Below, piece after piece: positions 3 to 6,479 of a stretch of 33,308 nucleotides of DNA. Made by a program: the position numbers and the translations under genes. Origin of the DNA: a virus. Below the pieces are notes generated by a model. It was not told the origin of the DNA and ran no database searches. It worked only from the letters and a program-made list of their open reading frames with translations. How positions within the stretch are numbered: the first letter of the stretch is position 1; the number at the start of each line of letters is the position of its first letter. Location: the IMG/VR virus record IMGVR_UViG_3300027896_002619, positions 1 through 33,308 of that record, one strand, 5' to 3'.

Positions 3-740
3 AGCCGGTCCTTACCTCCCCCAAAGTACTGTGTTGGACATAATATGATAGGTAAAAAGTGGGGAGAAAATGACACAGAACGGGTTGAGAAGTATAAAAA
101 AAGGATGACCAATAAATCTAATCCGTTTTGGGGAAAACACCACACAGAAAAAACAAAAGAAAAAATTAGGCAGACCCACTTAGGCAGAAAACAATCCGAA
201 AAAGAAAAAGAATCACATCGGCTTGCTGGTATAAAAAATAGACCCGTTGGGAAATTTCACCATAGTGAAGAAACAAAGAAAAAAATGTCCGAGAGAGCCA
301 AAAGGGTTAACTCTATTAAAAGTATATACACAAAAACAACCAGAAGCGACGCCATAAAGAAAAAATGGGCGAACACCCCGCTTGACATTAAAGAAGAAAT
401 ATTTCGGAAGGTTATAGCAGTAGGTAAGCCAAACCAGCAAGAGTTAGAATTAGACGGCATAATAAAATCTGTAACAGGAAAAGATTTTATTTTCTCGGGT
501 AATGGTAAAATTTGGATAGAAGGCAAGTGTCCAGATTGGTTTAATGTTAACGGAAGAAAACAGGTCATTGAATTTTTTGGTGATTATTATCACGGAGAAG
601 CCTTTACGGGAAGGACGAGAGATCAGGAAGAAGAAAGGCGGAAAGAGCATTTTAGGCGTTTTGGTTATGATTGTTTGATTATTTGGGGTCATGAATTAAA
701 AGACAAAAACAAAGTAATGGATAGGATTAGGAATTTCTGA
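3..740 (+). CDS. Homing endonuclease with NUMOD3 repeats and a Vsr-like nuclease domain (5' partial)
   Basis: The gene is probably a free-standing homing endonuclease that cuts DNA at a neighbouring locus to spread itself. The reading frame is open to the left edge. An ATG exists at 45, but the codons before it read ...KYCVGHN, which resembles the end of the zinc-binding N-terminal module found in many HNH/NUMOD3 endonucleases, so the true start is most likely outside the window. Counting from the ATG at 45, residues 20-95 hold at least two NUMOD3 DNA-binding motifs (GKHHTEKTKEKI and GKFHHSEETKKKM). Residues 130-215 form a Vsr-like PD-(D/E)XK domain with candidate catalytic residues E133, D164, E176 and H183, as in the EDxHD family typified by I-Bth0305I (family knowledge). 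Its stop codon overlaps the start of the next gene (TGATG). It is lysine-rich and AT-rich compared with its neighbours, which fits a mobile gene. Confidence 0.8.
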   Translation, partial: SRSLPPPKYCVGHNMIGKKWGENDTERVEKYKKRMTNKSNPFWGKHHTEKTKEKIRQTHLGRKQSEKEKESHRLAGIKNRPVGKFHHSEETKKKMSERAKRVNSIKSIYTKTTRSDAIKKKWANTPLDIKEEIFRKVIAVGKPNQQELELDGIIKSVTGKDFIFSGNGKIWIEGKCPDWFNVNGRKQVIEFFGDYYHGEAFTGRTRDQEEERRKEHFRRFGYDCLIIWGHELKDKNKVMDRIRNF

Positions 741-1570
741 TGTTAAATATCGTCGCCGTCATGGTCGTAAAGGATGATGCCTTTTATGTGGACATGGCTA
801 TCAAGAGCGTACTGCCCTATGTCCGAGGAATTTATATTCAGGACCAGATGTCAACGGACGGGACTTATGAAGAAATTCTAAAACTCAAAGACTATGATGC
901 GGGGATAAATGACAGAAAGATTTTTGTTGATCGGATAGATACCGGGAACAAGAAACGCTTTGAGCCCAATTACAATGAACCCCTGTGGAGGTCGTTTGCC
1001 CTAAAGAGAGCCGAAGAGGTCTTTGATCCCGAGTGGATACTCAAAATCGATGCCGATGATTGCTTCACGCCGTACTTCTTTGAGCGCCTCAAGGGATTAC
1101 TCGCCGGAGATTTCCCATTTGAAGGGGTCAGAGTATCCGGAGACCGGCCAATTTCTCAATACTATTGGGGGACCAACGGGGTCAATGAGCTTTTCATTAC
1201 CCAGGAAAGCCCAGAGGGCGGGAAGTTTGGAGATCCTCACACCCAACTTTGGAGGGCAGGGAAATATTACTTTATTCCAAACCCAGCCCTTGGCGGTGGT
1301 AACTTTCACCCGGTACTTCATCCTGATCCTCAACCGGTTTATTGGTTGCCGGGCTTGTGTAACTTCCACTTGCACCGGACTTTCGGGCCGAAGTCCTATG
1401 CCTTTTGGGAAGAGGGGGGAGATGTGTTTGAGAGGAAGACGCCCTTTTATCCTCCGAAAATGGCGCCGAAGTGGTTTTACTCGGATACCAACATGGGCAC
1501 GGCGGAGAAAAGAAACTTTGTTTGGCCGGAGTATATTCTCTCTAAGTGGCGGGAATTTGGCCTTTGGTGA
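740..1570 (+). CDS. GT-A fold (GT2-like) glycosyltransferase
   Basis: This probably transfers a sugar from a nucleotide-sugar donor. The N-terminus (MLNIVAVMVVKDD) is the usual first strand and loop of GT2 enzymes. The metal-binding DXD motif is seen as KIDADD, with D104, D106 and D107. The C-terminal half has a histidine- and tryptophan-rich acceptor region (residues 190-235). At 276 residues it is a single compact catalytic domain with no membrane segment. The ATG overlaps the upstream stop codon, so translation is probably coupled. The gene lies between two homing endonuclease genes and is the first member of the modification cassette. The stop (1568-1570) is followed in the same frame, after one codon, by the ATG of the next gene. 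The acceptor is unknown: virion protein, host glycan and modified DNA base are all possible. Confidence 0.8.
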   Translation: MLNIVAVMVVKDDAFYVDMAIKSVLPYVRGIYIQDQMSTDGTYEEILKLKDYDAGINDRKIFVDRIDTGNKKRFEPNYNEPLWRSFALKRAEEVFDPEWILKIDADDCFTPYFFERLKGLLAGDFPFEGVRVSGDRPISQYYWGTNGVNELFITQESPEGGKFGDPHTQLWRAGKYYFIPNPALGGGNFHPVLHPDPQPVYWLPGLCNFHLHRTFGPKSYAFWEEGGDVFERKTPFYPPKMAPKWFYSDTNMGTAEKRNFVWPEYILSKWREFGLW

Positions 1571-1573
1571 AAC

Positions 1574-5171: not shown

Positions 5172-5896
5172 AAGAGGAAATGAAAAAATGGAAAGGAACT
5201 TGTTCCATTGATAACCCAAAGGAAGGGCATGTTACTTTTGCCCGTGATCGGGAGCAATTATTAAAGCTGGTTGGGATTGATTTTCGTATTGGAGTATTTA
5301 CCCGAGGAGGGCCAAATTGGAGACTTAATTCAGAAAAGGTTAGTCTTTATGTTTCTCCATTTTTTGAATACGAATTCACCAAGTTTCACAATGAATTCTA
5401 TCAATACGAGAACCTCGCTGAAAATATTTACGAAGTTGGTGTATGGGTGGAACCGTCCGTTGAAATCTCCGAAGGCCTCCACGTCTCTATCGGTCCCAAT
5501 AACGAGCGAATTCAGTTGATGCACATGGGAAACGTGATCTTTGAAGAGGGTTGCCGGGTAGGACCCTTGACCTTTATTCAACGTGCCACGCTCCCCGGAT
5601 GTTCAACGATAATCAAGAAAGGCGCCTTAGTGGATGGTCAATGCACTATCGGCCATAACGCCGTAATAGGTGAAAACTCCCTGGTTGCTGCCGGGTCCGT
5701 GATCGGAGCGGGTAGTGTTGTAGGCAAAAATTGCTTACTCGGTATCCACACGGTCACGAAACCCCACGTTAAGATATGCGATAGGGTAGTAACCGGGATC
5801 GGTTCGGTCGTCGTCAAGGACATTGACAAACCAGGGATTTACATGGGAAGTCCGGCGAAGTTTTACAAAGAACACCCTGACGGATGGATGTGGTGA
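5168..5896 (+). CDS. Left-handed beta-helix (hexapeptide repeat) acyltransferase
   Basis: The C-terminal half (about residues 95-235) is a run of hexapeptide units, for example ALVDGQCTIGHNAVIGENSL and VIGAGSVVGKNC, ending with the usual GSVVVKDI and GSPAK tail. This fold is shared by LpxD/LpxA, PglD and related sugar N- or O-acyltransferases, which act as trimers with an acyl-CoA or acyl-ACP donor. An active-site histidine candidate is in IGHNAV. The first 90 residues form an N-terminal domain that I cannot assign. The gene starts in an ATGA overlap with the GNAT gene and ends one base before the deacetylase start. Placed next to a PIG-L deacetylase, it could re-acylate an amine freed by deacetylation (inference). 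Confidence 0.8.
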   Translation: MKEEMKKWKGTCSIDNPKEGHVTFARDREQLLKLVGIDFRIGVFTRGGPNWRLNSEKVSLYVSPFFEYEFTKFHNEFYQYENLAENIYEVGVWVEPSVEISEGLHVSIGPNNERIQLMHMGNVIFEEGCRVGPLTFIQRATLPGCSTIIKKGALVDGQCTIGHNAVIGENSLVAAGSVIGAGSVVGKNCLLGIHTVTKPHVKICDRVVTGIGSVVVKDIDKPGIYMGSPAKFYKEHPDGWMW

Positions 5897-5897
5897 G

Positions 5898-6479
5898 ATG
5901 ATCGTCTTAGCTCTCGGCTCCCATTTTGACGACATCGAATTTGGCCTTGGCGGTTCTTTGATCAAACATCGGGACGCCGGGGATACGATTTGGCTGGCGA
6001 TAACCCATTCAGACGACGCCCTGGGTGGAGATGTTGAGGCAAGGGGAAAGGAACAACAAGAAAGCATTGAAATTTTGGGGGCCGAAAACTTCATCCCCTT
6101 TCTTCAAAAGACACCAATAGAAGACAAGGTTGGAATACTGGACAGCCTTCATGCCGACATTCTCTATTTCCCCATGGAAACGGACTATCACCAGCACCAC
6201 AAGGAGACATCGACAATCGGTTTCGCCGTGGCCCGGAACCGGCACATGACGGTTTTGAAATATATAAACCAGAGTTCTCATTCCTGTTATCCGAATTATT
6301 TGAGCGTGATCGACATAGAAGAAAAGAAAAAATTGGTATCGGTTTTTAAATCGCAGAATGGCAGACAGCCGAAATTCATAGAGATCATGGAGGCCCAAAA
6401 CAGATATTTTGGCTCCTTGGTTTCCGGTAGCGGTCTTTATGCCGAGGGATTTGTTTTGCATAGAATGGTTAAGTTTTAA
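5898..6479 (+). CDS. PIG-L/LmbE family deacetylase
   Basis: Zinc-dependent deacetylases of this family remove N-acetyl groups from GlcNAc-type sugars (PIG-L, MshB, BshB). The diagnostic N-terminal motif is present as SHFDDIEFGLGG (residues 8-19), where family members have (A/S)H-x-DD-x-E-x-G-x-GG. It is followed by GD-T-(I/V) and an R-x-x-E helix. A second histidine cluster, DYHQHH (about residues 97-102), provides the third metal ligand and matches the family's H-x-x-H region. I use the ATG at 5898, which sits directly before the first strand; the frame is open further upstream, but those codons lie inside the acyltransferase gene and have no family match. The protein is 193 residues. It closes the modification cassette. 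Confidence 0.85.
   Translation: MIVLALGSHFDDIEFGLGGSLIKHRDAGDTIWLAITHSDDALGGDVEARGKEQQESIEILGAENFIPFLQKTPIEDKVGILDSLHADILYFPMETDYHQHHKETSTIGFAVARNRHMTVLKYINQSSHSCYPNYLSVIDIEEKKKLVSVFKSQNGRQPKFIEIMEAQNRYFGSLVSGSGLYAEGFVLHRMVKF

Follow-up and report, generated by a model that had tools for sequence, protein, structure and literature searches.

Gene Content of the Cassette

The 33,308-base IMG/VR record IMGVR_UViG_3300027896_002619 (hereafter the window), an incomplete genome, carries near its left end a cassette of seven genes predicted to build and edit a glycan. Read along the plus strand, they encode a glycosyltransferase (GTa, 740–1570), two S-adenosylmethionine (SAM) methyltransferases (MT12, 2235–2792, with a TTG start, and MT24, 2789–3703), a second glycosyltransferase (GT2b, 3673–4734), a GNAT acetyltransferase (4719–5171, with a GTG start), a left-handed beta-helix acyltransferase (LbH, 5168–5896), and a deacetylase (PIG-L, 5898–6479). 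These seven families had been proposed by an earlier sequence-only reading of the window, and Pfam, together with a predicted GT-A fold for GTa, bears out every one of them. The gene packing was also as that reading described, with consecutive genes from 2235 to 5896 overlapping by 4, 31, 16, and 4 bases and a single base separating LbH from the deacetylase gene. The GC content of the enzyme genes ranges from 0.44 to 0.51.

The cassette precedes the head genes, again as had been noted. Two small open reading frames (ORFs; 83 and 72 aa, 6504–6985) follow PIG-L and lead to a scaffold-like gene (7035–8021; phrog_8246, 2e-19) and the major capsid gene (8275–9387; phrog_334 major head protein, 6e-90), which form the downstream boundary of the slot that the cassette occupies; all of these genes lie on one strand. 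The 7035–8021 product is named scaffold because of its place between portal and capsid. Over its full length, the capsid protein is 43–44% identical to its counterparts in Burkholderia phage DC1, Erwinia phage PEp14, Pseudomonas phage Itty13, and Sinorhizobium phage PBC5; on this similarity, we take the window to be part of the genome of an uncultured phage related to the Bcep22/PEp14-like podoviruses.

Predicted Activities of the Cassette Enzymes

GTa has weak Pfam matches to GT2/CgtA and falls below the cut-off (0.007). Its structure model (mean pLDDT 64, confident only in the N-terminal half of approximately 130 residues) adopts a GT-A/GT2 fold, with SunS, SpsA, TarS, and RmlT as best Foldseek matches (best E 1.9e-7). 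On the basis of this model, GTa is predicted to be a GT2-type glycosyltransferase in which DADD serves as the DxD-type motif. Its homologues in relatives are 41–84% identical, the upper value being that of contig L031. A GmaR-like assignment was considered and dropped, the sequence match (E 0.046) being too weak to use. GT2b matches Pfam GT2 above the cut-off (1.2e-6) and displays a D/E-S/T-D motif; homologues of approximately 40% identity occur in four lineages, and a 102-kb contig of an unrelated phage has one of 36%. Its predicted structure is poor (mean pLDDT 46), and a TagF-like assignment was likewise set aside (sequence match 0.012, too weak to use).

Of the two SAM enzymes, MT12, of class I, matches Methyltransf_12 just under the cut-off (1e-6) and Methyltransf_11 above that family's own cut-off, and its homologues in cassette-bearing phages are 46–57% identical. 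MT24 belongs to the Methyltransf_24 class (1.5e-13) and carries VDGDH and HD motifs, whose columns are mostly kept, Asp-148, Gly-149, His-151, His-175, and Asp-176 being invariant in four homologues. These are the positions expected of metal-dependent small-molecule or sugar O-methyltransferases, and MT24 is probably a sugar O-methyltransferase of this kind. A PDB profile search with two MT24 sequences mostly matched designed TIM barrels, which we regard as noise.

The sequence-only reading had offered modification of DNA bases as an option. Sugars would then be put on modified phage bases and edited there, and T-even phages provide the precedent of glycosyltransferases acting on modified bases. 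We consider this option highly improbable. Neither MT12 nor MT24 has a DNA-methyltransferase match in Pfam, and the single PHROG hit labeled "DNA methyltransferase" covers just part of a 599-residue profile. A search for homologues of thymidylate synthase/dNMP hydroxymethylase (PF00303) came up empty in seven related records, of which three span 58–62 kb, while a control search was positive in nine genomes. In addition, the cassette sits in the head block and not among replication genes.

The downstream end of the cassette encodes enzymes that would act on an amino sugar. PIG-L (Pfam, 1.5e-6 with the longer ORF start) is a predicted zinc deacetylase of the BshB/LmbE type; it matches the profile of the GlcNAc-malate deacetylase BshB1 over its full length (3e-14), is 57–58% identical in four relatives, and retains the HxDD motif and the downstream HxxH motif, with His-9, Asp-11, Asp-12, His-98, and His-101 invariant in five phages. 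The BshB1 match and these invariant motifs make removal of the N-acetyl group from a GlcNAc-type sugar its likeliest reaction. LbH (Pfam Hexapep, 6e-12) resembles the amino-sugar N-acyltransferases LpxD (4e-23) and PglD (2e-13) among PDB matches, and it keeps the catalytic histidine of LpxD, whose IAHN aligns with IGHN. The protein stops 15 residues past the LpxD-like part and thus lacks the C-terminal region of LpxD; because of this absence, an acyl-CoA donor (acetyl-CoA-like, as in PglD) seems likelier than acyl-ACP. With PIG-L closest to BshB and LbH closest to LpxD/PglD, deacetylation followed by re-acylation of the amine makes chemical sense, and the glycan pathway with these two steps, as proposed from the letters alone, is supported at the level of protein families. 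A GNAT protein (Pfam Acetyltransf_1, 5.8e-9) occupies this place in the window only, no homologue being present in the other cassettes of the slot. Because PIG-L, LbH, and MT24 stand together with two or three glycosyltransferases, the set appears to be one that both builds and edits a glycan.

Recurrence of the Cassette between Portal and Scaffold Genes

Relatives were gathered from viral contigs with deacetylase, capsid, glycosyltransferase, and methyltransferase queries, and L-numbers (L003, L009, L031, L052, etc.) label the related contigs compared. Five full cassettes occupy the slot, namely those of the window, L052, L009, the L003 group, and the L033 group. With small ORFs omitted, the window reads (GT9?)-[HE1]-GTa-[HE2]-MT12-MT24-GT2b-GNAT-LbH-PIGL, where HE1 and HE2 are homing endonuclease genes; L052 reads GT9-GTa-MT12-MT24-GT2b-radical SAM-LbH'-PIGL; L009, GTa-MT12-GT2b-radical SAM/SPASM-LbH'-PIGL; the L003 group, GT9-GTa-GT2b-MT12-MT24-LbH'-PIGL; and the L033 group, GT9-MT24-like-GTa-GT2b-MT12-LbH'-PIGL. 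The GT9 gene of L003 is called by Pfam (1.9e-14), that of L052 by 55% identity, and those of L031 and L033 by visible similarity to L003.

All five share a core of GTa, MT12, GT2b, and a hexapeptide acyltransferase shortly before PIG-L. In each, the acyltransferase gene and PIG-L close the cassette in this order, with a 73-aa ORF in between in L052; scaffold and capsid genes lie 3' of every cassette, and the portal gene lies 5' wherever the record includes the upstream side, so that in L009 and L052 the cassette is seen between portal and scaffold. Such recurrence of the gene set, in the same slot and in four further lineages, is more than chance. The joint conservation that the sequence-only reading had proposed to look for is therefore present for the core. 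The exact chemistry is not fixed, as the other lineages have a LacA-like acyltransferase and no GNAT gene, and some of them a radical-SAM gene. Gene set and slot are thus conserved, while order, acyltransferase type, GNAT, and the radical-SAM gene vary. The acyltransferase of the relatives (LbH') is LacA/Maa-like (2e-14 in L003) and aligns with window LbH over the repeats only, with no orthology detectable between the two; judging from these alignments, it looks like one acyltransferase has been swapped for another at the same step of the pathway.

Other relatives fill the slot differently. The cassette core is absent in L007, L008, L010/L012, L011, and L014, where the slot of L011 and L014 holds small propeller-like proteins and that of L010/L012 a laminin-G-like protein, L008 has small ORFs only, and L007 has a membrane protein of the Wzy_C family discussed below. 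In DC1, Itty13, and PEp14 the scaffold position comes directly after the portal with no cassette in between, and none was found in the stretch of PBC5 that was read. On a capsid tree, the window is placed, fully supported, among phages in which no readable slot contains a cassette, and at least two gains or losses, in the simplest case three, are required to account for the distribution of the cassette. These changes indicate that the cassette has been exchanged or lost repeatedly and that the slot is a cargo site.

That patchiness raises the question of whether the cassette is generic cargo: envelope-glycan genes, picked up from a host as a mobile block and lodged in a tolerated site, with no function tied to the head genes. 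Homing endonucleases in and around the cassette and the differing gene content between lineages would suit such an origin. Against it, the reading frames of all shared enzymes are open, with catalytic motifs retained at 38–58% identity across lineages, and only viral contigs yielded relatives of GTa and GT2b over their full length, 398 genomes of one bacterial phylum yielding homologues that matched just the N-terminal GT2 domain. We therefore regard generic cargo as improbable.

Candidate Acceptor and Function

Promoter-like sites from the cassette to the head genes numbered 7, compared with 12.1 in shuffles, and terminator-like sites 15, compared with 13.4. With one strand, overlapping genes, and neither kind of site commoner than in shuffles, the cassette probably shares its transcription with the head genes, at the time of virion building. 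No transmembrane-like stretch was detected in the seven cassette proteins (maximal 19-residue hydropathy ≤1.5, versus 2.9 for the Wzy_C protein of L007), and all seven look soluble by this measure. Soluble products and the lack of an excess of promoter- or terminator-like sites make late, cytoplasmic action likely; for enzymes acting late in the cytoplasm, a virion protein would be the simplest target, with lipopolysaccharide (LPS) intermediates as the main alternative.

The cassette probably serves either to place an unusual modified sugar on the phage's own particle or to edit sugars of the host surface. We hold with roughly even confidence that it is a late-expressed glycan cassette decorating the phage's own virion proteins. 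Apart from its enzyme families, its packing, and its recurrent place among head genes, this view is favored by the matches of MT12 to methyltransferases within mycobacteriophage glycosyltransferase clusters, capsid glycans having been reported for that group of phages. GTa, GT2b, and a GT9 enzyme presumably encoded upstream would attach sugars in the cytoplasm; PIG-L would deacetylate an N-acetyl-hexosamine, LbH would re-acylate the freed amine, the GNAT protein might carry out a second acylation, and MT12 and MT24 would methylate sugar positions (O- or N-). The acceptor would be a cytoplasmic protein, either the capsid protein or small head proteins, and the glycan may have a role in shielding or adsorption. 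In this scheme, the order of steps, the late timing, the cytoplasmic protein acceptor, and the GT9 of this genome are what we infer.

Several observations weigh against virion decoration. The position among head genes suggests timing and not target, leaving the acceptor putative. LPS synthesis, too, typically involves GT9 and hexapeptide enzymes. The sole bacterial match to GT2b, covering its N-terminal part only, adjoins an HldE-like heptose kinase gene. A link to actinophage glycosyltransferase clusters, where methyltransferases 25–36% identical to MT12 were found in a search of 50,697 phage records, is an identity within a large superfamily. Finally, the portal-scaffold slot of the sister contig L007 holds a membrane protein of the Wzy_C (O-antigen ligase/PglL-type) family (6917–8542).

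Part of this evidence favors modification of the host surface, in which the enzymes would change the LPS, or some other envelope glycan, of the infected host, like O-antigen-converting phages do, either to exclude competing phages or to free progeny from receptor-bearing debris. The GT9 family comprises heptosyltransferases, LpxD-like and LacA-like acyltransferases and PIG-L are frequent in envelope glycan pathways, and the O-antigen-ligase-family protein of L007 is in the same slot. For Stenotrophomonas phage DLP3, which also has a PIG-L gene, LPS modification was proposed for the phage glycosyltransferase (PMC7326821). The cassette itself includes no flippase, polymerase, or other membrane protein, and late expression would be the least useful time for a surface change. 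No tyrosine or serine integrase was found in the cassette-bearing records searched, most of which are fragments, although one is 62 kb long; lysogenic conversion thus finds no support in these unfinished records. Overall, host-surface modification seems possible but rather unlikely.

Returning to virion decoration, a more specific version, which we put forward tentatively and think doubtful in its full detail, is that capsid or head-decoration proteins carry a rare N-acylated, O-methylated amino sugar and that the cassette is one among several alternative surface cargos swapped at the portal-scaffold slot, the others being lectin-like, propeller-like, and O-antigen-ligase-like proteins in addition to sugar-editing cassettes. 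If true, virion glycosylation would extend beyond phages of actinobacteria to an uncultured virus related to the Bcep22-like podoviruses, with a chemistry apparently richer than that of known phage glycans (deacetylation, re-acylation, methylation, and in some relatives a radical-SAM step). It would also define a genomic slot for cargo exchange and offer natural pairs with and without the cassette for probing the purpose of a virion glycan.

Homing Endonucleases and the Upstream End

The sequence-only reading had described a single seven-gene block from 740 to 6479. The genes are real at these positions, but the block is split by HE2 (1574–2233, plus strand), a homing endonuclease with NUMOD3 (1.5e-12) and MTES_1575/DUF559 (8e-9) matches, and its start at 740 is doubtful. 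HE2 separates GTa from MT12, which adjoin without it in L009 and L052. Upstream of GTa lies HE1 (45–740, plus strand), a NUMOD3 homing-endonuclease-like ORF (Pfam, 7.3e-6; phrog_314, 2.4e-6) that is open at the left edge of the window; it is a mobile element outside the pathway. Both have a lower GC content (0.36 in HE1 and 0.40 in HE2) than the enzyme genes.

Relatives carry GT9 between portal and GTa. In L031 (IMGVR_UViG_3300027896_000288), where the order is portal, GT9, GTa, positions 7876–8002 just downstream of GT9 are 100% identical to window positions 1–127; past these 127 bases, L031 jumps to GTa while the window continues through the rest of HE1. As 127 is a common k-mer length of assemblers, the two records probably share an assembly-graph node, with a real deletion as a possible alternative. 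The homing endonuclease of L031 is reduced to approximately 60 codons, in frame into GTa. We infer that the window phage also has a portal gene and GT9 just beyond the window edge, and the cassette probably starts upstream of 740, running off the window.

Interruptions occur in the head genes of relatives as well. The major capsid gene is interrupted by approximately 0.9 kb in L011 (4264–5148), L013 (340–1233), and L052 (about 14205–15085). The break falls near residue 73 in two of these phages and near residue 92 in the other, and a 272-aa HNH-like ORF lies inside the interruption in L052. No group I intron matched Rfam at the gathering score in these split genes.

Other Features of the Window

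Between cassette and scaffold, the first of the two small ORFs resembles a beta-propeller/WD40 fragment (Pfam WD40_like, 9e-5, below the cut-off), and both have relatives in cassette-bearing and cassette-free phages alike. Further downstream, the window encodes a protein (14360–15424) containing two copies of Mtd_N, the N-terminal domain of the major tropism determinant (Pfam, 1e-27), and, among tail-region genes, a phrog_1574 protein (16943–17653) with a weak match to phrog_34859 (phage glycosyltransferase, 7e-5) and none in Pfam. A 2935-residue protein (21957–30764) combines a ddrB-like ParB domain with a RadC/JAB-like domain and resembles the giant proteins that are associated with virions in this group of podoviruses.

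Comparison with Known Glycan Systems

Among isolate phages, no match was obtained by megablast of the first 12 kb of the window or by tblastn of GTa, GT2b, MT24, and GT9 (50,697 records for GTa and GT2b), and tblastn of PIG-L gave one distant match, to an unannotated faecal phage contig. The cassette set thus occurs in no cultivated phage searched and in at least four related uncultured viruses, and no paper describing it turned up in the library searched. A 101.8-kb viral contig without a homologue of the window capsid has a much larger glycan cluster beside structural-looking genes (IMGVR_UViG_3300032401_001693; approximately 25 kb, from L068 13572 to L069 about 20000). It contains GT9-, GTa-, GT2b-, and MT-like genes together with epimerase-like, DegT-like (aminotransferase-like), radical-SAM, and more glycosyltransferase and methyltransferase genes, the additional names being given from sequence inspection alone. 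Runs of ORFs with signal-peptide-like N termini, unusual for virion proteins, lie beside tail genes in L068 (4385–13514) and L034 (1004–5028).

The Bcep22/BcepIL02/DC1, Itty13, PEp14, and PBC5 podoviruses share a capsid of approximately 44% identity with the window, and DC1, Itty13, and PEp14 the order portal-scaffold-capsid, but these three have no cassette in the slot. Unlike O-antigen conversion of the gtr/oac type, the cassette has neither a membrane flippase nor a membrane glycosyltransferase or acyltransferase. Its deacetylate-then-acylate logic on an amino sugar recalls LpxC-LpxD (lipid A), PglD (bacillosamine), and BshB (bacillithiol); in contrast to these cellular systems, the pair in the window is phage-borne and lies beside glycosyltransferases and methyltransferases, and its deacetylase is a PIG-L protein rather than LpxC.

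In Stenotrophomonas phages DLP3 and DLP5, genes for PIG-L, WcaG, WecE, a methyltransferase interpreted as Erm-like, and a glycosyltransferase lie upstream of the large terminase gene (PMC7326821). The combination of PIG-L, a class I methyltransferase, and a glycosyltransferase near packaging genes is shared with the window, whereas the DLP clusters include sugar-nucleotide enzymes and no acyltransferase was noted in them. A tblastn search with window PIG-L at 1e-5 returned no DLP record among its matches.

Capsid glycans are reported for mycobacteriophages Che8 and Rita (Freeman 2023, as cited in PMC11256854 and PMC13313380). Mycobacteriophage clusters (prophiGD91-2 gp73-80 and Phrappuccino gp142-145) resemble the cassette in combining several glycosyltransferases with class I methyltransferases, which are 25–28% identical to MT12, and in having virion structural genes close by; the prophiGD91-2 cluster, including the methyltransferase that matches MT12, is directly upstream of terminase, portal, and capsid genes. 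They differ in that no PIG-L, hexapeptide acyltransferase, GNAT, or GT9 is annotated in those stretches and that their glycosyltransferases are not homologous to GTa or GT2b by tblastn, and the window cassette, unlike them, is inserted between portal and scaffold. Because searches of this sensitivity reveal no homology between the glycosyltransferases and the glycan itself is a prediction, we do not class the cassette within the mycobacteriophage or DLP clusters. By analogy, mycobacteriophage virion glycosylation is the working model for the cassette, from which it would differ in its glycosyltransferases, its deacetylase-acyltransferase pair, and its conserved insertion slot.

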